From Flavobacteriaceae bacterium (GTDB lineage Bacteria > Bacteroidota > Bacteroidia > Flavobacteriales > Flavobacteriaceae), in assembly GCA_016744615.1 (NCBI GenBank), contig JADGEA010000018.1, forward strand, positions 1 to 34,665: 34,665 nt of DNA, in the 5' to 3' direction. This document shows positions 7,878 to 34,535 of this stretch, one piece after another (the stretch's first letter is position 1; every line of letters begins with the position of its first letter). A model generated the notes under the pieces. That model was not told where the DNA came from. It did no database searches and saw only the letters and a list, made by a program, of their open reading frames with translations. The position numbers were made by a program, and so were the translations under genes.

Positions 7878-7892
7878 AAGTTTCATTAAAAT

Positions 7893-7986
7893 GGCAAGCT
7901 ACCTGCATCACACCGCTACGACCTAATACCTTTGCTGCGTTCCCGCCCTGGAGGATTCAAAGGGAGCTGGTTGTGCAGGACTTGCC
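7893..7986 (-). ncRNA. ffs: Signal recognition particle RNA (4.5S type, small)
   Basis: On the minus strand the ends pair, GGCAAG-CCTGCA against TGCAGG-CTTGCC. The apical part holds CCAGGGCGGGAACGCAGCA, the form of the conserved Ffh-binding GGAA loop and asymmetric loop of SRP RNA. The length of about 94 nt fits the bacterial small type. The RNA binds Ffh and directs ribosomes making membrane proteins to FtsY. A promoter with perfect spacing places the start near 7986, exactly at the closing stem. Confidence 0.88.
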
Positions 7987-7990
7987 GCTG

Positions 7991-8020
7991 CGAAATTACA
8001 ATCATTTTACAATTTAACAA
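7991..8020 (-). promoter_or_regulatory. Predicted promoter of the SRP RNA gene
   Basis: On the minus strand TTG (8018-8020) is followed after 19 bases by TAATTTCG (7991-7998), one mismatch from TAnnTTTG. Transcription would start about 5 bases further on, at the first base of the SRP stem. Confidence 0.65.
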
Positions 8021-12136: not shown

Positions 12137-13966
12137 ATGAAATATTTTAAAAAAATTCTGCGTTTTGCCAAACCTTATACAAGGTATGTTTGGCTTAATA
12201 TTTTATTCAATATTCTTTACGCTATTTTTAATGTACTATCTGTTCTTGCATTTATTCCTGTTTTGGGAATTTTATTTGGGAGAAATGAAAGGGTTATGCA
12301 AAATCCAAATTTCACTGGTGTTGCGGGAATTTACGACTATGTACAAAATAGTTTAAATTATCACATCTCAAATATTATGGAAACAAGCGGAGCTGAGAAA
12401 GCTCTATTGTTTATCAGTTTGGTGAGTTTTTCCATGTTTTTTTTAAAAAACCTATTTCGGTATCTCGCCATGTATGTTCTGGCATTTTTACGAAATGGAA
12501 TTGTAAAAGATCTTAGAGATGGATTGTTTCATAAAGTTTTAGAATTACCTATTTCATATTTTTCTGAAAAGAAAAAAGGCGACACCATAGCGCGCTTAAC
12601 AAGTGACGTTCAGGAAGTTGAGTTTTCTTTTTTAAATTCACTGGAAGCTATCGTTCGAGAACCTTTAACAATAGCTTTTACCTTAATTTCGATGTTTGCT
12701 ATAAGTATGAAACTCACACTTTTTGTTTTTATACTTTTACCTGTTTCTGGAATAATAATATCATCTGTGAGTAAAAAGTTAAAAGCACAATCTTTATTGG
12801 CACAACAGGAAACAGGGAATTTCTTATCTTTTATTGAAGAAACACTCACCGGATTAAAAGTGATCAAAAGTTTTACCGCAGAAGATAAAATAGAACATAA
12901 ATTCCAAAAATCAACCACACGTTTTGAAAAGTTAATGAATAGTGTACTAAACCGGAAAAATTTAGCATCACCTATGAGTGAATTTCTTGGCTCGGCAACT
13001 ATTATTGCAATTTTATGGTTTGGAGGAAGATTAGTTTTAAGCGGTTCAGACGATATGAAACCTCAGGAATTTCTTGGGTATATTGGCTTATTTTACCTAA
13101 TTTTAAATCCGGCAAAAGCTATTTCTCAAGCCGTTTTTAGTGTGCAAAAAGGAAATGCTTCTGCGGAAAGAATTATGGAAATTCTGGAAACAGAAAACGA
13201 CATTAAAAATGTTGCTGATGCGTTGGATAAAACATCTTTTGACAAAGAAATCACCTTAAAAAATGTTTATTTTAAATATAAAGATGAATATGTTTTAAAA
13301 GATTTTTCTTTGACTATTCCCAAAGGGAAATCAGTTGCACTTGTTGGACAGTCAGGAAGTGGAAAGTCAACTCTGGCAAATTTAATTCCAAGGTTTTATG
13401 ATGTAAACAAAGGTGAAATTTTAATTGACGGAGTTAATATCAAAAATATCAAAAAGGAGTCTTTACGTGAATTAATGGGATTGGTAACACAGGAATCTAT
13501 TTTATTTCATGATACCGTTAAAAACAACCTTAAACTAGGAGTGGATCAAGCAAGTGATGAGAAAGTTATAGAAGCTGCAAAAATTGCAAATGCCCATGAA
13601 TTTATTGTTGATCTACCTAATCAATACAACAATAATATTGGAGATAGCGGTAATACATTATCAGGTGGACAAAGACAACGTTTATCTATAGCACGTGCTG
13701 TATTGAAAAACCCACCAATCATGATCCTTGATGAGGCAACCTCAGCATTAGATACCGAATCAGAACAACTGGTGCAAAAAGCCCTAGAAAAAATGATGGA
13801 AAACAGAACCTCTGTTGTAATCGCACATAGGTTATCTACCATTCAAAAAGCAGATATGATTGTGGTAATTCAAAAAGGTAAAATTGTAGAACAAGGTAAA
13901 CACCAAGAGCTTCTGGCAAAAGAAGGAGCTTATTATAAATTGGTTAATATGCAATCATTAAGCTAA
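12137..13966 (+). CDS. ABC exporter, fused membrane and ATPase domains (MsbA/lipid-exporter type)
   Basis: A half-transporter of 609 residues that should form a homodimer. The membrane domain (about 1-340) has six hydrophobic segments. The nucleotide-binding domain shows Walker A GQSGSGKST (404-412), Q-loop Q452, signature LSGGQ (508-512), Walker B IMILDE (528-533) and the H-loop His564. The arrangement and length are those of MsbA-like type IV exporters, which flip lipids or export drugs. The substrate cannot be told. No gene symbol is given because several paralogues exist in such genomes. The palindrome just upstream could influence its expression. Confidence 0.93.
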   Translation: MKYFKKILRFAKPYTRYVWLNILFNILYAIFNVLSVLAFIPVLGILFGRNERVMQNPNFTGVAGIYDYVQNSLNYHISNIMETSGAEKALLFISLVSFSMFFLKNLFRYLAMYVLAFLRNGIVKDLRDGLFHKVLELPISYFSEKKKGDTIARLTSDVQEVEFSFLNSLEAIVREPLTIAFTLISMFAISMKLTLFVFILLPVSGIIISSVSKKLKAQSLLAQQETGNFLSFIEETLTGLKVIKSFTAEDKIEHKFQKSTTRFEKLMNSVLNRKNLASPMSEFLGSATIIAILWFGGRLVLSGSDDMKPQEFLGYIGLFYLILNPAKAISQAVFSVQKGNASAERIMEILETENDIKNVADALDKTSFDKEITLKNVYFKYKDEYVLKDFSLTIPKGKSVALVGQSGSGKSTLANLIPRFYDVNKGEILIDGVNIKNIKKESLRELMGLVTQESILFHDTVKNNLKLGVDQASDEKVIEAAKIANAHEFIVDLPNQYNNNIGDSGNTLSGGQRQRLSIARAVLKNPPIMILDEATSALDTESEQLVQKALEKMMENRTSVVIAHRLSTIQKADMIVVIQKGKIVEQGKHQELLAKEGAYYKLVNMQSLS

Positions 13967-14021
13967 TCAACTTTTTCTCTTTCAAAACGAAAAAAATCCA
14001 TAATAAAAAAAATCACATAAG

Positions 14022-14651
14022 ATGAATATCATAGAAAGTTTAGAATGGCGCTATGCCAGTAAGAAATTTGATCCGAGTAAAAAATTAACCAATACTCAAA
14101 TTGAAACTTTAAAAAATGCTTTTAATCTAACACCCACTTCATTTGGTTTACAACCAATGAAAATGATTGTACTAAATGATCAAAAGTTAAAAGATGAAAT
14201 CTTCTCTCACTCCTATTTTCAAGAACAGGTGAAAACATGTTCTCATCTTTTAGTACTATGCATTGATACCGTTGTAAATAAAAAAACAATTGATAATTAT
14301 TTCGATTATGAAAAAAAAGTGAGAGGAACTACCGAAGAGGTTGTTGGAACCTTCCGCGAACAATTAAAGGGAATGTATGGTGGCATGTCAGCTGAAGATA
14401 TTGAAAGATCCTCCGTTTACCAAACCTACATTGCTCTTGGGAACCTAATGACGGTTTGTGCGGTAGAAAAAATTGACAATTGCCCTATGGAAGGGTTTGT
14501 ACCTTCAAAAATTGATGAAATTCTGGGTTTAAAAGAAAAAAATCTAAAATCAGTTTTAATGCTTCCTGTTGGAATAAGAGCTGAAGATGATATTATGAGT
14601 GGCATGAAAAAGGTAAGAAAACCTTTAGAAGATATAATTATTGAATTATAG
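14022..14651 (+). CDS. NAD(P)H-dependent nitroreductase (NfsB-like)
   Basis: This 209-residue FMN enzyme of the nitroreductase superfamily has the N-terminal WRYASKKFDP (9-18), the flavin-binding PTSFGLQPMK (38-47) and the late CPMEGFVPSKIDEIL and LMLPVGIRAEDD segments. These match the NfsB/dihydropteridine-reductase branch. Such enzymes reduce nitro groups, quinones or related compounds; the natural substrate is unknown. It follows the ABC exporter by 55 bp and may share its transcript. It is not closely similar to the other nitroreductase-fold protein in the window. Confidence 0.92.
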   Translation: MNIIESLEWRYASKKFDPSKKLTNTQIETLKNAFNLTPTSFGLQPMKMIVLNDQKLKDEIFSHSYFQEQVKTCSHLLVLCIDTVVNKKTIDNYFDYEKKVRGTTEEVVGTFREQLKGMYGGMSAEDIERSSVYQTYIALGNLMTVCAVEKIDNCPMEGFVPSKIDEILGLKEKNLKSVLMLPVGIRAEDDIMSGMKKVRKPLEDIIIEL

Positions 14652-24845: not shown

Positions 24846-25658
24846 ATTAAAGACCATATAATTGCTATAGATAGGGAAACCATTAAAGAAGCTAAATCGA
24901 ACGGAAAAAAATCTCCCATTCATATGGTTAGTGCTTGGGCTAATGATAATAATCTGATTTTAGGTCAAGTGAAAGTCTTTGAAAAATCTAATGAAATTAC
25001 AGCAATTCCAAAATTATTAGAAGTTCTGTCAATAAAAGATACAATTGTAACCATTAATGCTATGGGATGTCAAACAGCTATAACAGAAAAAATAATTAAA
25101 AAACAAGCCGATTATATTTTGGCTGTAAAAGGGAATCAAGAGCAGTTGTATCAAGATATTCAACATGAATTTAGATTTTCAAAACAAGTACAATCTCATC
25201 TAAGTGAAGAACTAGATCATGGTAGAATTGAAACTCGAACTTGTAGTATCATTACAGATTTTAAATTTATCGAAGATCCTTACAGATGGAAGAAATTAAC
25301 CACGGTTATAAAAATCGAAAGTATTCATGAGTTAAAAAACTCCAATAAACTCACAGAAAAAGCTACACGATATTACATATCTAGTTTGCTCGCTAAACCA
25401 GAAGATTTTCAAAATGCCGTCTGCTCGCATTGGGCAATCGAAAACAAACTCCATTGGACTCTTGATGTTGCCTTTTCAGAAGATGCTTCTCGAAAAAGAA
25501 TTAGAAATGCTTCACAAAACTTCTCTATTCTAAATAAAATAGCTTTGAATCTTTTAAAAAATGAGAAATCGAGTAAAGTTGGGATCAAAAATTGTAGACT
25601 TAAAGCGGGATGGGACAATCATTATCTCATTAAAGTACTCAATCTAATGAAAGTTTAA
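24846..25658 (+). pseudogene. ISAs1-family transposase, N-terminally truncated and catalytically altered
   Basis: Coding similarity begins near 24846 (IAID at 24861-24872, then GKKSPIHMVSAW) and runs to the stop at 25656-25658. About the first 100 residues of the family are absent, and a stop (24843-24845) closes the frame upstream. The first catalytic region reads IAIDRE where the family has IAIDGK. The second catalytic aspartate, in the recalled motif TIDAMGCQ, is asparagine here (TINAMGCQ). The C-terminal WTLDVAFSEDASRKR and LKAGWDN motifs are kept. An ATG at 24924 opens a 244-residue frame, but it lacks the first catalytic Asp. The protein should be inactive. Confidence 0.82.
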
Positions 25659-25877: not shown

Positions 25878-26036
25878 TTGAAAAAAATATTACTATTAGC
25901 AGTTATTATATTTAGCAATGTATATTTAAGCTTTGCACAAGAAAAGAGTTTTTTTTAAAAAGAATTAGAAAAATTTCATTTCAAAGCATATGGAGTTGTA
26001 AATTATTATTCATTTGGTTGGGATACAGTCACTTGA
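25878..26036 (+). pseudogene. N-terminal fragment of an outer-membrane porin-like protein
   Basis: The frame starts at TTG 25878 (LKKILLLAVIIFSNVYLSFAQ, a clear signal peptide). It meets a TAA at 25956-25958 and then continues in the same frame as KELEKFHFKAYGVVNYYSFGWDT to a TGA at 26034-26036. I recall similar starts (a GYGVVNYY motif soon after the signal peptide) in flavobacterial porin-like barrels several hundred residues long. Only about 50 codons remain, with one internal stop. The fragment lies between the IS remnant and the TonB cassette and marks the edge of a deletion. Confidence 0.6.
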
Positions 26037-26150: not shown

Positions 26151-29027
26151 ATGAATATGGAAAAGAGTATAATATTATATATTCTGCTACTTATTATAAG
26201 TACAAAACTTCAAATATTACAAGCCCAAAATAGAGCAAATTTTGAAGGTACAATCCTAGAGAACAGGTCAAAAAACCCAATTCAGTTTGTAACAATTTTA
26301 CTGAAAGAAAATGGAAAATGGGCAGTTACAGATATAAACGGAATCTTTAAAATCCCATCGATATCTCAAAACACATATACTATAATAATTTCTTGTCTAG
26401 GCTATAAAGAGATTGAAAGAGAAGTTGTTATAAAAGAAGGTACTACAAATTTAAATATAGCCATGGAAGAACTTTCCTTAGGTTTAGATGAAGTTATAGT
26501 AATAGCTCACGAACAAAAATTAGTAACAGCTTCTATAATAAAACAAACAGCAATACAACATGTTCAACCTAAAAGTATCTCCGATCTTTTTCAATTATTA
26601 CCTGGGCATATTACAGAAAATCCAACACTGTCTTCTCCTGAACAAGTAAAAATGAGAGAAATTGTAGAAAATGGAAATAGTGCTTTAGGAACAGCAATTA
26701 TTGTTGATGGTATTCCGATTTCAAACGATGCCAATTTGCAAATAACCTCAACAGCAAAAGGAGGAACGACTAATAGTGCACCAACAGTTGCGGGTAGAGG
26801 TGTAGATTTAAGAAGTATCACAACAGGTAATATAGAATCTATAGAAATTATAAGAGGAATTCCTTCTGTTGAATATGGAGATTTAACTTCGGGTGTTGTA
26901 ATTATAAAAACAAAATCAGGTAAAACCCCTTATGAAGTCAAAGTATCTATTGATCCTGAAACTAAAATGTTTTATGCTGGGAAAGGATTTTTACTAGGAA
27001 AAGAAAAAGGTGCTGTAAATACAAGTATTGATTATGCACAAGCTTATTCTGACAAAAGGAAAAAATATAAAGGCTATGAGCGAGTTACAGCAAATTTAGG
27101 CTATTCAAATACTTTTTTTAAAACAACAACACCATTTACATTTAATTTTAAGTTATTATATCACCAAACTTTAGATAATAATAAAACAGATCCACAATTA
27201 AAATCTAAAGAAATTATTAGGTCAAGGGTAAAAGGCATAAGATCTAGTATTAACGGAAAGTGGCAAATAAACTCAGATTTACTTACTAATATTAGGTATA
27301 ATTTTTCAGGAAGTTCATCACATCATGAAGATTATAATAAAAATTTAAAAACGGTAACAGCAGGGACAATGCCCTTAGGAACATCATATACGGAAGGCGA
27401 AAATGTTGCAAATTACCTTCCGTCAGAGTATTATTCAGAATTAACTATTGATGGGAAACCTTTTAGTTTTTTCGGACAATTAATTAGCAATACAAATACA
27501 CGTATAAGTAGTGGGTATAATAATATTAAATTAGGTATAGAATGGCGATCTGATGGCAATAATGGTCAAGGTAAAACATTTGATATCAATTATCCACCAA
27601 CAATTAATTCAGTTAGTACTTTGCGCCCTCGGTCTTATAAAGATATTCCTGCTTTAAACAAATTTTCTTTATTTATAGAAGATAAAATAAAATTAGCATT
27701 AGGCAAAACATGGTTTACAGGACAAGCAGGTGTACGTTATACTAATATTCAACCTAAAGGTCTTTTCTCTACAAAAGGTGCAACAACGATAGAACCTAGA
27801 ATAAACCTTAAATATCAAATCTTAAATTCGAAAAACAATTCAATATTTAAAAATTTAGCAATTCGTTTTGGCTATGGTATTGCGGCAAAGTCTCCAACTT
27901 TAGTACATCTTTATCCAGATAAAGCATATTTTGATGAGGTTAGTTTAAATTATTACGATAGTAATAGTGGTTCTTTAGCTGTAATGACAACTAAAATAAT
28001 AAATGATACATCAAACCCTGATTTAAAACCAGTTTATAACAAGAAGAAAGAAATAGGAATAGATTTTTCTATTAATAAAATTTCAGGAAAGCTAACAGCT
28101 TATCACGAAAAACAAACCGATGGGTATGGGTTCTCAAGAGTACCTGTTTTCTTAGAGCATAGAGACTATTCTATAGATGGCGCAGGTAAATCACCTTTTC
28201 TTATTGAAGGAGATGGTGTTTATTATTATGAGGAAGATGAAGTTTTACAAGCTGAGTATACCATTAATACAGCTTTTCATTTTTATAAAACCCCTAATAA
28301 TAATAACACATTAATTAAAAAAGGAGTTGAATATGTTATTAATTTTGGAAGAATTAAAGTTTTGCGAACAACGATAGTTGCAGATGGCGCATGGTTTTAC
28401 ACTGAAAGGTTTAACACAAAAAACACATATAAAACTATTGGCACACTTTATCAAGGAGATAAATTTCCATATATCGCTGTTATGCCGGCAGGAGATAAAA
28501 CAATTAGACAACGTTTAAATACTAATATACGAGTAATTACACACATTCCTTCAATAAAAATGATTGTGTCGCTTACAACCCAAATTTTATGGTTTACCAA
28601 GACAAAGTATGAATATGAAAGTTCTAATGGAATCCCCTATGTTTATATAACTCAAAATAAAGAAAGAATTGATGTTGATAATGTATACACTTACCAAGGT
28701 GATAATGTTATAAAAAATGTAGCTCCCATTGGTTATATCGATAAGTATGATACCTATTATGAATGGAGTCCAGATAGTTATAATATTCAACCATATTATT
28801 CAATGGTCAAAACATATTCAGATACTTATTTTTTAGAAGAATGTTTACCTATCGCTTTTATGTTCAATTTAAAGCTTACAAAAGAGTTAGCAAATAATTT
28901 AGATTTAGCTTTTACAGCAAATAACTTTTTAAATATGAGACCATATCAAAAACTAAAAAGAAGTTCTGGTTATACACAAAGAAACACTCCATTATATTTT
29001 GGAGCTGAAATTAAGTTTAAATTTTAA
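26151..29027 (+). CDS. TonB-dependent receptor with N-terminal carboxypeptidase-like domain
   Basis: The 958-residue outer-membrane receptor has a signal peptide (about 1-26, ending LQAQ). A CarboxypepD_reg-like domain follows (about 30-108: FEGTILENRSKNPIQFVTILL... SCLGYKEIEREV), then a plug (about 135-260, with GTAIIVDGIPISNDA and IEIIRGIPSVEYGDLTSGVVIIKTKSG), then a 22-strand barrel ending in EIKFKF. Such receptors import large or scarce ligands using TonB energy. It is the first gene of a tight four-gene cassette with DUF4876, DUF6850 and a peptidase-like lipoprotein; there is no SusD homologue. The ATG at 26151 and the one two codons later are equally possible starts. The ligand is unknown. 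Confidence 0.93.
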   Translation: MNMEKSIILYILLLIISTKLQILQAQNRANFEGTILENRSKNPIQFVTILLKENGKWAVTDINGIFKIPSISQNTYTIIISCLGYKEIEREVVIKEGTTNLNIAMEELSLGLDEVIVIAHEQKLVTASIIKQTAIQHVQPKSISDLFQLLPGHITENPTLSSPEQVKMREIVENGNSALGTAIIVDGIPISNDANLQITSTAKGGTTNSAPTVAGRGVDLRSITTGNIESIEIIRGIPSVEYGDLTSGVVIIKTKSGKTPYEVKVSIDPETKMFYAGKGFLLGKEKGAVNTSIDYAQAYSDKRKKYKGYERVTANLGYSNTFFKTTTPFTFNFKLLYHQTLDNNKTDPQLKSKEIIRSRVKGIRSSINGKWQINSDLLTNIRYNFSGSSSHHEDYNKNLKTVTAGTMPLGTSYTEGENVANYLPSEYYSELTIDGKPFSFFGQLISNTNTRISSGYNNIKLGIEWRSDGNNGQGKTFDINYPPTINSVSTLRPRSYKDIPALNKFSLFIEDKIKLALGKTWFTGQAGVRYTNIQPKGLFSTKGATTIEPRINLKYQILNSKNNSIFKNLAIRFGYGIAAKSPTLVHLYPDKAYFDEVSLNYYDSNSGSLAVMTTKIINDTSNPDLKPVYNKKKEIGIDFSINKISGKLTAYHEKQTDGYGFSRVPVFLEHRDYSIDGAGKSPFLIEGDGVYYYEEDEVLQAEYTINTAFHFYKTPNNNNTLIKKGVEYVINFGRIKVLRTTIVADGAWFYTERFNTKNTYKTIGTLYQGDKFPYIAVMPAGDKTIRQRLNTNIRVITHIPSIKMIVSLTTQILWFTKTKYEYESSNGIPYVYITQNKERIDVDNVYTYQGDNVIKNVAPIGYIDKYDTYYEWSPDSYNIQPYYSMVKTYSDTYFLEECLPIAFMFNLKLTKELANNLDLAFTANNFLNMRPYQKLKRSSGYTQRNTPLYFGAEIKFKF

Positions 29028-29054
29028 ATCATTATGAAACCAAATTTTTATATT

Positions 29055-30263
29055 ATGAAAAAAACACTAATTATTTTATTTCTAATTTTAATCGTTTTTA
29101 ATTACGTCAGCTGTGACAACGATGATGATTTTGCTGAAAAATATACTGTCTCAGTAATTGTAGCTTATCCTGATGGATATGCAGAAACAGTCGCAAGCGG
29201 TATGACAGTAACAGTTACTGGAGTATCTAGTACTGAATTACAAAATACGACAACTGATTCTAACGGTATAGCTACTTTTGAATTAGAAGCTGGAGAATAC
29301 AGTATTTCAGCTGTAGGTGAAACGGAAGAGTTTGCATTTAACGCCATAAATGACGGAGCTACAATTGCCAATGATGTTACAATAAATTTAACGTTAAAAG
29401 CTGTAGCACTAACAGGTGGACTAGTATTCAAGGAAATCTATTATACAGGTTCTACCACCTTAGAAGACGGTCGCTATTATTCTGATCAATTTCACGAAAT
29501 TTATAACAACTCTGATGAAACTATCTATTTAGATGGTTTATGTATTGGTGTTATGCAACCTTCAAGCAGCAAAGAAAGCCCATGGGTTGATTCTAATGGG
29601 GATTTAATGAATAAATTACCTTTGCAATTTTATGTATGGTATGTACCAGGTGATGGAGATGATTATCCTTTAGAAGCGCGTACTAGTATGATTATTGCAC
29701 AAGATGGCATTGATCATAAAACTGATGCTGCAGGAAACTCTAATTCTCCTGTAAATTTAGGTAATGCAGACTGGGAAACATACTGTGGAGATATTAATGG
29801 AGGAAAAGATGCAGATGCTCCTGGTGTTCCAAACCTTTCGATGATGTTTACAACAACAACAGGAATGTTTGATTGGCTTCATTCCGTTTTTGGTGCAGGT
29901 GTTATTATCTTTAAATTACCAGAAGGAACAGATCCCATTACTTGGGCTTCAAATCCTGATAATCTTTCAACCAAACCAGGAAGCAGTTCTACAAGGGAAT
30001 ACTTAATGATACCATCAGATTATGTTATTGATGCTGTAGAAGTAGTAAGAATTGAAGAAGAAAAAAGATATAAAAGAATACCTGATGAGCTAGATGCTGG
30101 AAAAGTTTGGTGTTCAGGAATTTACACTAGCCAAAGTATAAGAAGAAAAGTGAAACAAATTATTGATGGTAAAGTTATTTATCAAGACACTAATAATTCA
30201 TCAGAAGATTTTTTAGGTTCACAAATACCAACACCAGGGATTCACCCAACAGTAGTTGATTAA
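29055..30263 (+). CDS. DUF4876 lipoprotein
   Basis: From the ATG at 29055 the protein has a lipoprotein signal ending YVSC (Cys20), followed by DNDDD. Such acidic residues right after the cysteine resemble the signal that sends lipoproteins to the cell surface in Bacteroidota (inference). An Ig-like or CNA-B-like beta domain comes next (about 30-115: VTVTGVSSTELQNTTTDSNGIATFELEAGEY). The DUF4876 body follows (FKEIYYTGS, QFHEIYNNSDETIYLDGLCIG), related in pattern to lamin-tail-like folds. It begins 27 bp after the TonB receptor gene; an ATG at 29034 would add seven residues. A hairpin follows the stop. Function is unknown; it may be the ligand-binding partner of the receptor. Confidence 0.85.
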   Translation: MKKTLIILFLILIVFNYVSCDNDDDFAEKYTVSVIVAYPDGYAETVASGMTVTVTGVSSTELQNTTTDSNGIATFELEAGEYSISAVGETEEFAFNAINDGATIANDVTINLTLKAVALTGGLVFKEIYYTGSTTLEDGRYYSDQFHEIYNNSDETIYLDGLCIGVMQPSSSKESPWVDSNGDLMNKLPLQFYVWYVPGDGDDYPLEARTSMIIAQDGIDHKTDAAGNSNSPVNLGNADWETYCGDINGGKDADAPGVPNLSMMFTTTTGMFDWLHSVFGAGVIIFKLPEGTDPITWASNPDNLSTKPGSSSTREYLMIPSDYVIDAVEVVRIEEEKRYKRIPDELDAGKVWCSGIYTSQSIRRKVKQIIDGKVIYQDTNNSSEDFLGSQIPTPGIHPTVVD

Positions 30264-30278
30264 TAACTTGAAATTCAT

Positions 30279-30304
30279 AAGGAGCACAATAAAAAGTGCT
30301 CCTT
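30279..30304 (+). terminator. Hairpin between DUF4876 and DUF6850 genes, terminator or attenuator
   Basis: AAGGAGCAC (30279-30287) pairs perfectly with GTGCTCCTT (30296-30304) around the loop AATAAAAA. ATACTATTTTTAATG follows, and its ATG begins the next gene. It may lower read-through rather than stop it. Confidence 0.55.
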
Positions 30305-30316
30305 ATACTATTTTTA

Positions 30317-31876
30317 ATGAATAAAAATTATATAACATATTCATTTATTTTTCTTGCGGTAGTTTGCCAATTTGTAAACGGGCAAACAAAGCAGAAAGAT
30401 AGTGTTAAGTATATTAATTCTTTTGAAAAAATTCCTATAAATAATTTATGGATTATTACAAATAACCCTGCTGCAATATCAAATAATGATTTTGAAAAAC
30501 TAGGAAATGTATCGGTAGGTTATAATACGAAAAAAGGTGATTATTATAGATATAATCAACCAGAATCTATTAATTCTATTTTATTTTCAGCAGAGGGCTA
30601 CACCAAACCTAATAAAATAACCTTTTATGGAAAAATGGATTATTATAATGCCCGAGAAAAAAACTTAAATTGGAATAATGTATCATTCATATCTTCAAAT
30701 AATCCTTTTATTTTAGCAGATTCGATAGGTGGTGATTATGATAATGAAATTTTTACTTTAACAGGAAAAATGGCTTCTCAATTTGGTGAGAATAAATCAA
30801 ATTGGGGTATTTCAATAAAATATAAAGTTGGAAACAAAGTAGACCAAACAGATCCTAGACCAGAAATACAATCCCAAAGAATATCAATAAGACCAGGAAT
30901 TATTCTCGCTATAAAAAATTGGGAATTTGGTGTAAATGGGTATTATGAAAGCTTTAAAGAAGATACTGACATTACTGTAGTTGATCATTATATAAGCTAT
31001 AGGTACTTTAGGTTTATGGGATTTGGAATATACTCTGGAATTTCTGATGACTATTTTGAAAGAGTTTATAAGGGATATAATTATGGAGTGGCTTTACAAA
31101 CAAAATATAGTCGACATTCTCTAAAAAATATTTTGGAACTAAAAATTACAAACGAATATGAACGAGCCCATGAAGGCTCTCTTTCAACAAGATTTCTTGC
31201 AGGAGATTATAACGGAACAATTATAAACATAAAAGATAGATTACAAATTAGAAAGAATAATTTGATTCATACTTTTCATTTTAATGGAGAACTTAGACTA
31301 ATTAAAGGTACTTGGTATGATCAAAATCAGGTAACTGGTGATGACGGAACAATCTATTGGGATGTATACAATAAGTCCGTTAAGTATAAAAACGTACTAG
31401 TTAATGCAAATTTAGAATATTCTCTAACTAAAGAAAAAGATAACTTAATTAATCATGTTTTTTTTGGAAAACTTGATATAAAAGGCGAAATGTGTGATTT
31501 TTATCCTGATAAATTTTTAAACAACTATTATAATTTAACATCAACAATCGGTTATCACAAAAACTGGTTTTCTAAAACCTTTCAAATAGCTTTAAAATTC
31601 AATTTGGGTTACAAATTTAATTTGAATAAAGAGTTTTATGCAAAAGATATAGAGTTTTTAGAAACCATAACTTACCCAGAGTATTATTATAATATTACTA
31701 ATCAAATTAAATTTAATAATGAAATAAAAATAGGGTTTAATAAATTACTAAAAGTACCAATATTACCATATATGGCAGTAAGTAGTGATTTTGTTTATTG
31801 TAAAGACAATAATTATAATTACTATAACAATGATTATAGGGTACTTGGAAACATTAAAATAGGTATAATCTTCTAA
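30317..31876 (+). CDS. DUF6850-family outer-membrane beta-barrel protein
   Basis: From the ATG at 30317 the 519-residue protein has a signal peptide (about 1-22, ending VNGQ). A short periplasmic part with NLWIITNNPAAISNNDFEKLGNVSVGY follows, then many amphipathic strands rich in Tyr, such as WGISIKYKVGNKVDQT, WEFGVNGYYESF and FQIALKFNLGYKFNL. It ends in NIKIGIIF, a barrel-closing strand. The pattern and the position after DUF4876 fit the DUF6850 family, known to me only as an uncharacterised barrel. A frame extension to a GTG at 30296 lies in the hairpin stem and is rejected. The peptidase-like gene starts 11 bp later. Confidence 0.78.
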   Translation: MNKNYITYSFIFLAVVCQFVNGQTKQKDSVKYINSFEKIPINNLWIITNNPAAISNNDFEKLGNVSVGYNTKKGDYYRYNQPESINSILFSAEGYTKPNKITFYGKMDYYNAREKNLNWNNVSFISSNNPFILADSIGGDYDNEIFTLTGKMASQFGENKSNWGISIKYKVGNKVDQTDPRPEIQSQRISIRPGIILAIKNWEFGVNGYYESFKEDTDITVVDHYISYRYFRFMGFGIYSGISDDYFERVYKGYNYGVALQTKYSRHSLKNILELKITNEYERAHEGSLSTRFLAGDYNGTIINIKDRLQIRKNNLIHTFHFNGELRLIKGTWYDQNQVTGDDGTIYWDVYNKSVKYKNVLVNANLEYSLTKEKDNLINHVFFGKLDIKGEMCDFYPDKFLNNYYNLTSTIGYHKNWFSKTFQIALKFNLGYKFNLNKEFYAKDIEFLETITYPEYYYNITNQIKFNNEIKIGFNKLLKVPILPYMAVSSDFVYCKDNNYNYYNNDYRVLGNIKIGIIF

Positions 31877-31887
31877 TAGGATATAAA

Positions 31888-34065
31888 ATGAAAAAAATTT
31901 TTATACTAATATTTATTATTATTAGTGCTTGCAAAAAAGAACCAGTTACACCTGGCTTTGCCATTGTTGTAGACCAAGAAAGCTATAAACAGACTAAAAA
32001 TGAAATAATTGCATATGCGAAATCTGTAGAGGCAGATGGATTAAAACCCGTAATTGTAATAGATAAATGGCAAAACCCAGATTCTATAAAATCAAAATTA
32101 ATAGAGCTTTACTATGATAAAACCAACCCCATAGAGGGAGCTGTTTTTGTTGGAGATATTCCTGTTGCCATGATACGTAATGCACAACATTTTACAAGAG
32201 CATTTAAAATGAACCAAGAAAAGTATTCTTGGGATAGATCATCTATTCCTTCGGATAGATTTTATGATGATTTTAATTTACAGTTTACTTATCTAAAGAA
32301 AGATTCTATTAATTCTTTACTACACTATTATTCACTAAATGCATCTTCTAATCAGTATTTATCTCCAAATATATATACAGGTAGAATAAAACCACCTAAT
32401 ACATTAAATAAATATCAGGATTTAAAGAATTATCTAATCAAGTTGGTACGTATAAAACAAAAAGAAAATATTGTAGACGAGGTTTTATATTTTTCAGGTT
32501 ATGGGTATAATTCTGATTCTTTCTTAGCTAGAATTGATGAAAAAATAACTCTATTAGAGCAGTTTCCATGGCTAAATGGACAACAAAACAGATTAGAATA
32601 TATTAATCATGCTGATGACATTCATATTAAACATAAATTAATGTCAGAACTACAAAGAAATAATTTAGACATCGCTTTACTACATCATCATGGTCATGAC
32701 GATATGCAATATTTAAGTGGTATGCCCAAAGTAAAATCGGTTACTGGTCAAATTAATGGTGTAAAACAATATTTACGCTCTAAATTAAGAACCGCTAAAA
32801 GAAAAGGTAAAGACCTAAAAAAAGTTAAAAATTATTATTCAATTAAATTATCTATTCCTTTAAACTGGTTTGATGGCACTTTTGATAAAAGAATTATAGA
32901 AGAAGACTCTATTTTTAATGCAGAAATGGATATTAGCATTTCTGATATGAAAAACTATACTCCTAATGCTAAATTTTTAATGTTTGATTCTTGCTTTAAT
33001 GGATCTTTTCAAAAAGACGATTGTATTGCCAGTGCTTATATTTTTGATAAAGGAAACACCATAGTAAGCTTTGCCAACAGTGTTAGTTCTTTACAAGATA
33101 AATGGCCTAATGAAATGGTTGGACTTTTGGGTGTTGGTATACGTATTGGTAATTGGGCAAAACAAGTTTCCTATTTAGAGACCCACATTATTGGAGATCC
33201 AACCTATCATTTTACTTCAAAAAACACATCGTACAATATAAATGAAGATTTATTTTTTAAAGCTGATAAAATAGACTTTTGGAAACGTAAAGTAAATGAT
33301 GAATATGCAGATGTTCAAGCACTAGCACTTCGAATGCTTTATCAAAACAATTATGAAGATATTTCTGATTTATTATTTGATACATTCAAAAATAGTGAAT
33401 ATGGTGTTGTACGAATGGAATGTTTAAAACTTTTGACTAATATAAACGATTCTAATTTTATTAATTGTGTTTCCTTAGCTACTAATGATTCTTATGAACT
33501 AGTAAGAAGACAGGCATTATATTTAATTGGAAAAAGCGGAGATAATAAATTAATTAAACCATTACTAATAGCGGCTATGGCGAACAATATATCTCCGAGA
33601 GAAAAATTTAATATTAAACAATCAATTGGTCTATTCGAAAAAGATAGTTTACTTGTAAGTTTTGATTCTATTTTTAATAATTCAACGTCCTATTTAAAAT
33701 CAGAAAAAACAAAAGAAGAAATTAAAAGAATGGTAATTAATTCTTCCGAACGATGGTCAAGAAATATTGAAAAAATTTTTACTCCAGAATCAACGGAAAA
33801 AAATATTATTTTTGCTATTCGTTCTTTACGTAATTACAACTACCATCCTGCAACTGAAAAGTTTTGTAATTTTATTTTGACCCATAAAAATTCTAAACTA
33901 CAAAAGACAATGATAGAAGCATTAGGTTGGTTTAATATTTCTGTCAATAAAGACATGATTATTAGTACATGTAATACTATAGTTAATGATAATTCATTTT
34001 CAAAAGAAGTAAAAACTGAAGCACAACGAACCCTAAAACGACTTTCTTTTCCTTGGTCTAGATAA
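31888..34065 (+). CDS. Lipoprotein with gingipain-like (clan CD, C25-type) peptidase domain and HEAT-like repeats
   Basis: The 725-residue protein has a lipobox ending ISAC (Cys15). Residues about 22-445 look like a C25-type caspase-fold peptidase. There is an early GAVFVGDIPVAM block, SDRFYDDF at 122-129 and SPNIYTGRI at 159-167. The catalytic His-Gly follows a hydrophobic strand in DIALLHHHGHDD (H268-G269), and the catalytic Cys is in FLMFDSCFNGSF (C369). The GNTIVSFANS strand and a final IIGDPTYHF are also typical. Residues about 470-725 are helical pairs like HEAT repeats (VQALALRMLYQ, VVRMECLKLLTNI, LVRRQALYLIGK). No T9SS C-terminal domain is present. It is the last gene of the cassette. 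Peptidase activity is inferred; the domain could also be a non-catalytic relative. Confidence 0.8.
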   Translation: MKKIFILIFIIISACKKEPVTPGFAIVVDQESYKQTKNEIIAYAKSVEADGLKPVIVIDKWQNPDSIKSKLIELYYDKTNPIEGAVFVGDIPVAMIRNAQHFTRAFKMNQEKYSWDRSSIPSDRFYDDFNLQFTYLKKDSINSLLHYYSLNASSNQYLSPNIYTGRIKPPNTLNKYQDLKNYLIKLVRIKQKENIVDEVLYFSGYGYNSDSFLARIDEKITLLEQFPWLNGQQNRLEYINHADDIHIKHKLMSELQRNNLDIALLHHHGHDDMQYLSGMPKVKSVTGQINGVKQYLRSKLRTAKRKGKDLKKVKNYYSIKLSIPLNWFDGTFDKRIIEEDSIFNAEMDISISDMKNYTPNAKFLMFDSCFNGSFQKDDCIASAYIFDKGNTIVSFANSVSSLQDKWPNEMVGLLGVGIRIGNWAKQVSYLETHIIGDPTYHFTSKNTSYNINEDLFFKADKIDFWKRKVNDEYADVQALALRMLYQNNYEDISDLLFDTFKNSEYGVVRMECLKLLTNINDSNFINCVSLATNDSYELVRRQALYLIGKSGDNKLIKPLLIAAMANNISPREKFNIKQSIGLFEKDSLLVSFDSIFNNSTSYLKSEKTKEEIKRMVINSSERWSRNIEKIFTPESTEKNIIFAIRSLRNYNYHPATEKFCNFILTHKNSKLQKTMIEALGWFNISVNKDMIISTCNTIVNDNSFSKEVKTEAQRTLKRLSFPWSR

Positions 34066-34256: not shown

Positions 34257-34535
34257 TTAAGCTGCTACATATCTTATTAATTGATGCCTGAAAAACTGAG
34301 CAACTCTTTCTGGATTTTTTTGTAAAAAGATCATGCGAGACTTGACATTATTTTTCATTTGTTTTTGATTTTTAGGAGTTGGCTTCAAACCTATTCCACT
34401 TTTTAAATCATTGTTTAAATATTTATCAGGATTCAATTCTGGAGAATACGAAGGAAGGTAAAAAAGTTCAATTTTATCTTTGTTTTCTTCCGCCCATTTC
34501 TTTACCAATTTACTATGATGCACTCTATATGCTAC
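34257..34535 (-). pseudogene. IS630-family transposase, C-terminal fragment
   Basis: Similarity starts near 34535 (VHHSKLVKKWAEEN) and includes IELFYLPSYSPELNP, the block before the last catalytic residue of the IS630 DDE domain. The stop is at 34257-34259. Only about 90 of the usual about 340 residues remain. After ELNPD the family has Glu (recalled as NPDEYLN), whereas here it is Lys (NPDKYLN), so the catalytic site is also altered. The fragment lies tail to tail with the peptidase gene. Confidence 0.78.

Follow-up and report, generated by a model that had tools for sequence, protein, structure and literature searches.

Four genes near the end of a contig from a Flavobacteriaceae bacterium (NCBI GenBank assembly GCA_016744615.1) form an operon with a possible role in taking up an iron-bearing protein and breaking it down. 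The window analyzed here is the whole stretch of 34,665 nucleotides (JADGEA010000018.1, positions 1-34,665), and g1 to g4 denote the four genes of the cassette in order. With a probability of roughly 55%, we read this cassette as an iron-scavenging, Fus-like, protease-associated import system that uses a C25-fold protease and digests its cargo after import. The cassette genes are:

26151..29027, + strand: g1, TonB-dependent transporter of 958 amino acids (Pfam CarbopepD_reg_2, Plug and TonB barrel)
29034..30263, + strand: g2, DUF4876 lipoprotein, probably surface-exposed (Pfam DUF4876, 1.3e-47; lipobox YVSC followed by DNDDD, by eye)
30296..31876, + strand: g3, DUF6850 protein, presumed outer-membrane barrel (Pfam DUF6850, 3.8e-83 across the whole profile)
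31888..34065, + strand: g4, putative exported C25-like cysteine protease domain plus HEAT domain (Pfam, model and conservation)

All four genes lie on the + strand with intergenic gaps of 6, 32 and 11 nt, confirming the coordinates of the same-strand unit that a preliminary description, made from the sequence alone, had drawn; the barrel nature of DUF6850 is an assumption taken over from the label given there. No SusD-family match was found by Pfam in g1-g4, which upholds the earlier reading of g1 as a TonB pore lacking a SusD partner: in SusCD nutrient utilisation pairs a SusD-family lipoprotein sits beside the transporter, and here that neighbor is DUF4876 instead. NCBIfam, above its cut-offs, added nothing to the Pfam labels of the four genes. 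Since the contig ends at 34665, only ~600 nt are visible 3' of g4.

Conservation of the cassette was assessed in a phylum sample of 247 genomes, of which 22 carry DUF4876 and 225 do not. DUF6850 scored above cut-off in 22 genomes, 20 of them shared with the DUF4876 set (20/22 versus 2/225 others, p 4e-25; seven matches under the cut-off are omitted), and the two DUF4876 genomes without a match (G009 and G035) have an open reading frame (ORF) of similar size at that position. The g4 gene (E<1e-140) was present in 6 of the 22 DUF4876 genomes, including that of the window, versus 0 of the 225 others (Fisher p 2.5e-7, with four weak matches of E 3e-4 to 8e-4 omitted), so its clustering with DUF4876 is not due to chance. 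All six of these high-scoring g4 genes share a contig with DUF4876 and DUF6850. In the five genomes other than that of the window, g4 lies within ~11 kb of the core on the same contig: immediately 3' of g3 in G238, with one or two extra same-strand genes intervening in G062, G216 and G243, and ~9 kb away with an opposite-strand ORF in between in G093 (locus L055).

A scan of GTDB genomes with an alignment of six g4 sequences recovered 507 relatives (tblastn E<=1e-3), and the best 80 of these, with g4 as bait, were used for all locus counts. The order g1-g2-g3-g4 on one strand, allowing at most one other ORF between neighboring genes, was kept in 65 of the 80 loci; 22 of these 65 hold two to four consecutive g4 genes, and the median g3-g4 gap was 28 nt (63 gaps). 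Of the remaining loci, nine begin no more than 1.7 kb ahead of their first g4, which leaves the upstream genes incompletely visible; in L079 no g2 was called, in L081 the g1-g3 genes lie downstream of g4, and L086, L095, L098 and L103 carry g4 without g1-g3 on the single strand examined (with only 3.3 kb upstream in L098). Because a contig can hold more than one of the loci (L085/L086, L083/L095), the 80 loci do not represent 80 independent genomes. Judged by gene order, g1-g4 is a conserved operon, and the peptidase gene does stand beside DUF4876 and DUF6850 in other genomes, the point on which the preliminary description had staked its four-gene unit.

The protease assignment of g4 comes from its predicted structure and its invariant residues. 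The protein comprises a C25-like (gingipain-fold) domain at approximately residues 22-447 and a C-terminal HEAT domain at approximately residues 450-720, and its Pfam matches are limited to HEAT_2 (2.1e-07) and a sub-threshold DUF445. The Pfam C25 profile (PF01364) found no match in the window g4 at E<=0.1 or in 10 relatives at E<=1, and when run over the window's own genome at E<=10 it hit nothing at g4, with contig C280 alone scoring among three first-look candidates. A profile search of PDB sequences with g4 likewise returned no C25 match, its strong matches being HEAT proteins. The structure model, built from an 84-row alignment, had a per-residue confidence score (pLDDT) of 95.0 and a predicted template modeling score (pTM) of 0.93, and its best PDB matches in Foldseek were the gingipains RgpB (4ief, 1cvr) and Kgp (6i9a), with E-values of 1e-7 to 6e-7, followed by HEAT-repeat proteins. 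Across the window g4 and 118 relatives, H268, G269, C369, G436 and P438 were invariant (119/119) and D437 was kept in 118/119. The C25 catalytic motif consists of His-Gly and Cys with a downstream Gly-Asp-Pro, as seen in part in 25 C25 domains of the phylum, and g4 conserves this pattern. A permissive profile alignment of g4 with C25 (E 0.028) ran end to end and paired SDR..DD, GR, Cys and GDP, leaving His unpaired. We call the domain C25-fold because of the gingipain matches of the model and the His/Cys invariance, despite the lack of a Pfam match. By the model, g4 folds like a gingipain, and its putative His/Cys dyad is conserved, which bears out the gingipain-like domain proposed earlier, invisible as it is to Pfam; by its sequence, it is a very divergent or sister family and not a recognised C25 member, with a putative cysteine-protease activity.

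The link to iron comes from published expression data and from the regions 5' of g1. According to the part of PMC10434189 available to us, iron depletion raised PG1019-22 of Porphyromonas gingivalis 20.8- to 214.5-fold, BT1933-39 3.5- to 7.4-fold (a list naming a HEAT repeat protein, DUF4876 and a TonB receptor) and BT3625-33 38- to 128-fold (with ABC and DUF4857 genes among those listed), and one TonB-receptor operon (DUF4876/TonB) was induced in P. gingivalis, Prevotella intermedia and Bacteroides thetaiotaomicron. The sections seen of two further papers report a log fold change of -5.42 for a DUF4876 gene in a hemin comparison, where HmuY moved the same way and the direction is one that we infer (PMC10470040), and list PG_1019/PG_1020 in a transcriptome table (PMC10101095). 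BT1933-39 and PG1019-22 resemble the cassette in their DUF4876 and TonB genes, and the BT list also in its HEAT repeat protein; they differ in being printed, in the available part of PMC10434189, as regulated-gene lists without a mechanism and with no protease domain named. A DUF4876 crystal structure also exists (4q1z, BT_1938), and it is the top PDB match of g2 both by sequence (E 3.8e-41) and by fold (E 2.2e-32). The earlier statement that no member has a known function was thus too strong. Judged from titles, abstract openings and passages, no functional study of the DUF4876, DUF6850 or DUF4857 genes or of the BT and PG loci was found in the literature searched, outside of which most subscription papers and all preprints fall.

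An operator-like motif, ATACC-N8-GGTAT with at most one mismatch, was found 5' of g1 in 19 of 55 regions (shuffles: mean 0.27, maximum 1), the N8 spacing having been picked after inspection of earlier upstream-region results. Exact AATACC-N8-GGTATT occurred at 15 sites in four Bacteroidales genomes (4, 8, 1 and 2) versus 2 for the reversed pattern (1, 0, 1 and 0). Ten of the 15 sites, assigned to genes by hand with Pfam labels, precede FeoAB (1), PepSY_TM (1) or TonB receptors (8); of the eight TonB-receptor sites, two are the cassette itself and two are more than 200 nt away. The motif is apparently an iron-regulon operator in Bacteroidales, a candidate role suggested by these positions. Among loci L060-L139 the AATACC-N8-GGTATT palindrome was seen 5' of g1; no motif of this type is present 5' of g1 in the window.

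Where g4 acts was judged from export signals, with lipoboxes scored by a crude rule and signal peptides by eye. A lipobox was found in 14 of 118 g4 relatives, one of which is acidic after the Cys, and the N-termini printed for g4 proteins without a lipobox look like plain signal peptides. The same rule picked out 54 of 68 DUF4876 relatives, 40 of them with at least two acids right after the Cys, and several of the DUF4876 proteins it missed resemble lipoproteins by eye. An acidic stretch after the lipobox Cys is a surface-export mark; in the window g4, inspection by eye shows a lipobox (ISAC) that reads on as CKKEPV, which is presumably not a strong surface signal. The label of lipoprotein given earlier to g4 may therefore hold for the window copy, but with 14/118 relatives it is no trait of the family. 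Neither the window g4 nor any of 10 relatives scanned showed a type IX secretion system (T9SS) sorting tail. As 104 of 118 relatives have no lipobox and none of the 11 proteins scanned has a type IX tail, g4 is more likely periplasmic than surface-located, and export without a sorting tail makes it likelier that the cargo is digested once imported than outside the cell. The previously suggested coupling of proteolysis to import is thereby retained, and its order of events, cutting at the surface and then importing the product, becomes the less likely one.

In the mechanism we propose, iron shortage would lift a repressor at an operator 5' of g1, a step drawn from the expression in print for relatives and from the candidate Bacteroidales operator. 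The surface DUF4876 lipoprotein would capture a protein or peptide that carries iron or haem and dock on the TonB transporter, which, energised by TonB as its family suggests, would bring all or part of the cargo into the periplasm. There, the C25-fold/HEAT protein g4, either on the periplasmic side of the outer membrane or unattached, would digest the cargo and free its iron or haem, and tandem g4 copies may broaden the range of cleavable cargo. DUF6850 would be an accessory outer-membrane protein, perhaps made in a different dose through a hairpin between g2 and g3.

Fus, or protease-associated import, is described for Pectobacterium FusA-FusC and Escherichia coli YddB-PqqL in the available part of PMC6793856. 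The cassette shares with it a TonB transporter beside an exported protease (in 65/80 bait loci). The iron-dependent expression of Fus systems may have a parallel in the published iron response of relatives of the cassette and in the upstream motif shared with feoAB in Bacteroidales, a motif that the window copy lacks. The protease of the Fus systems is an M16 enzyme, whereas that of the cassette combines a C25 fold with HEAT repeats, and the cassette adds a DUF4876 lipoprotein and DUF6850. Because no M16 metalloprotease was found by Pfam in g1-g4, the comparison is a claim about how the systems work only. The cassette occurs in Bacteroidota and Ignavibacteria and the available part of PMC6793856 covers Proteobacteria; in the portion of its main text that we could consult, C25, gingipain and cysteine protease go unmentioned.

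A papain-like protease gene lies directly 3' of g4 in 22 of the 80 loci, with Cys81, His239 and Asn268 invariant among 18 aligned sequences. Over a short stretch its profile matched PDB cysteine proteases, namely Lpg2622 (6a0n, E 2.8e-10), which we take to be papain-type, and 3ois (9e-5), and single sequences scored under the Pfam C1 cut-off. HmuY-like genes follow g4 in 17 of the 80 loci and exceeded the Pfam cut-off in the four scanned; being short proteins whose match falls mostly in the first half of the profile, they are putative haem binders. A short HmuY-domain protein follows the papain-like protease in many of its 22 loci, and in L124 the C-terminus of the papain-like protease (12162-14047) has a weak similarity (E 8e-4, below the cut-off) to the end of the HmuY profile that the short proteins lack. 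On the window contig, which stops ~600 nt after g4, no HmuY was seen. L062 and L065 have ABC and DUF4857 genes after g4 as well. For loci without g4, a scan of eight proteins near the g1-g3 core identified four di-haem cytochrome c peroxidases downstream of g1-g3 (L033, L035, L044 and L045, L033 being from the window's own family), one DUF4857 protein (L031), one AhpC/TSA protein and two without a match. Many distant relatives among L047-L058 have a protein of 730-770 amino acids after the core that, by eye, looks like a beta-propeller with a T9SS-type tail. With such varied neighbors, g1-g3 resembles a core for iron uptake to which interchangeable modules are added. More tentatively, and with some doubt, the cassette may be a second, independently evolved protein-import-and-digest system, in which a whole iron or haem protein would enter through DUF4876 and the TonB transporter to meet periplasmic C25-fold/HEAT proteases, joined in some lineages by the papain-like protease and an HmuY-type binder.

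The best g4 fold matches being gingipains, digestion could instead take place outside the cell, with an external g4 cutting a haem or iron protein and DUF4876 and the transporter importing the released haem, iron complex or peptide. A precedent exists in P. gingivalis, where gingipains cut haemoglobin so that HmuY takes the haem (PMC3040768, available in part). The gingipain-HmuY-HmuR system described there shares with the cassette a C25-fold protease, a TonB receptor and an iron setting, and 17/80 loci bring an HmuY-like gene; it differs in that g4 has no T9SS tail in the 11 proteins scanned, no PF01364 match and a HEAT domain, and in that the cassette protease sits in the transporter's operon. 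The window g4 has its lipobox by eye, but with lipoboxes in 14/118 relatives (one acidic after the Cys), no T9SS tail and a CKKEPV that is presumably not a strong surface signal, we regard surface digestion as unlikely. Still less probable is that g4 has no nutrient to cut and instead processes or quality-controls one of its partners, be it the transporter, DUF4876 or DUF6850. PorU and like C25 relatives are processing enzymes and the operon linkage is tight, but 16 of 22 DUF4876 genomes do without g4, up to four tandem copies fit substrate breadth better, and a papain-like protease accompanies g4 in 22/80 loci; the preliminary description had raised this maturation idea as well. The least probable alternative, ordinary chelate uptake in which a siderophore or haem is the cargo of the transporter and lipoprotein and the protease gene, a separate part of the iron-stress response, has only travelled with them, is consistent with g1-g3 occurring elsewhere with di-haem cytochrome c peroxidase or DUF4857, with DUF4857/ABC genes after g4 (L062, L065), with the distant g4 of G093 and with the four loci (L086, L095, L098, L103) that show g4 without g1-g3 on the examined strand, but is opposed by the six of six high-scoring g4 genes sharing a contig with DUF4876 and DUF6850 and by the short g3-g4 gaps.

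Several results weigh against import followed by digestion in an iron-scavenging system. At 0.34 by query and 0.56 by target, the Foldseek TM-scores of g4 are modest, and profile-profile comparison with the 25 phylum C25 domains gave weak matches: E was 0.0093 at first and 0.0036 (probability 9%, over the N-terminal 126 columns) once the catalytic part was compared. The iron-response data come from species other than that of the window, and we infer from label and place that the HEAT repeat protein of BT1933-39 is g4. ATACC-N8-GGTAT is absent from 36 of the 55 regions 5' of g1, and 5 of the 15 operator-like sites fall next to or within genes of other kinds, including one immediately 5' of an AhpC/TSA-family gene. 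A different iron box for the window, the palindrome TTAGA-N5-TCTAA upstream of its own cassette, was rejected for lack of enrichment, having 9 sites versus 24 for the reversed control in its genome and occurring in 2 of 55 upstream regions of relatives. Sixteen of the 22 DUF4876 genomes lack g4, and the periplasmic placement of g4 depends on missing export signals.

The gap between g2 and g3 contains one further feature:

30277..30306, + strand: 11-bp hairpin in the g2-g3 gap, overlapping the GTG start of g3

Hairpin stems of at least 10 bp were found in 14 of 61 g2-g3 gaps, the window included (shuffle mean 0.2), in 0 of 65 g1-g2 gaps and in 3 of 59 g3-g4 gaps, and the g2-g3 hairpins that were printed differ in sequence between loci. 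The hairpin is a possible attenuator or 3' stabiliser, and the recurrence of such stems suggests uneven expression within the operon. Because the GTG start falls inside the hairpin, the true start of g3 is probably the ATG at 30317.

The window copy of the cassette stands apart from its surroundings. Contamination of the assembly is 8.35%, but a contaminating contig was judged unlikely, since uvrB on the window contig is closer to eight same-family genomes (73-83% identity) than to ten named g4 carriers (64-67%), placing the contig in the host lineage; a chimeric contig is possible. Within the order, g4 is present in 1 of 148 genomes, the window's own. In a g1 tree of 86 rows the window, whose row was flagged for unusual composition, is sister to Marinilabiliaceae JC017 (100*) in a clade of 35 rows (99*) composed of Bacteroidales plus one metagenome-assembled genome labelled Bacillota, and the g1 of a same-family copy (G245) branches in another part of the tree. 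The GC content at third positions is 15.8-17.6% in g1-g4 versus 21.2-28.9% in five other window genes chosen by us. A mobile element lies upstream:

24924-25658, upstream of g1: ISAs1-family transposase ORF (profile positions 100-314 of 314 only)

The single occurrence of g4, the placement of g1 and the low third-position GC disfavor vertical inheritance and, together with the upstream transposase, indicate that the cassette was probably gained horizontally, with differential loss of old paralogues as a possible alternative origin. Also in the window are a fragment resembling, by eye, the end of an IS630-type DDE transposase (34257-34523, - strand), a gene-start remnant with a signal-peptide-like stretch broken by stops (25880-26030) and a Bacteroidales small signal recognition particle RNA (7888-7994, - strand, 105.3 bits). 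Elsewhere, a record titled Pseudoflavonifractor (Bacillota; L067) carries the cassette and adjoins Muribaculaceae in the g1 tree; it is probably a misbinned metagenome contig.

Iron is a main contest among gut and oral Bacteroidota, their hosts and their neighbors, and among the literature found, seen in part, this operon is known in print only from lists of iron-/hemin-responsive or stress genes. The g4 protease fold is unlabelled by Pfam and NCBIfam, and a single genome scan yielded its 507 tblastn-confirmed relatives. If our reading is true, protein-import iron piracy would reach beyond Proteobacteria and beyond M16 proteases.

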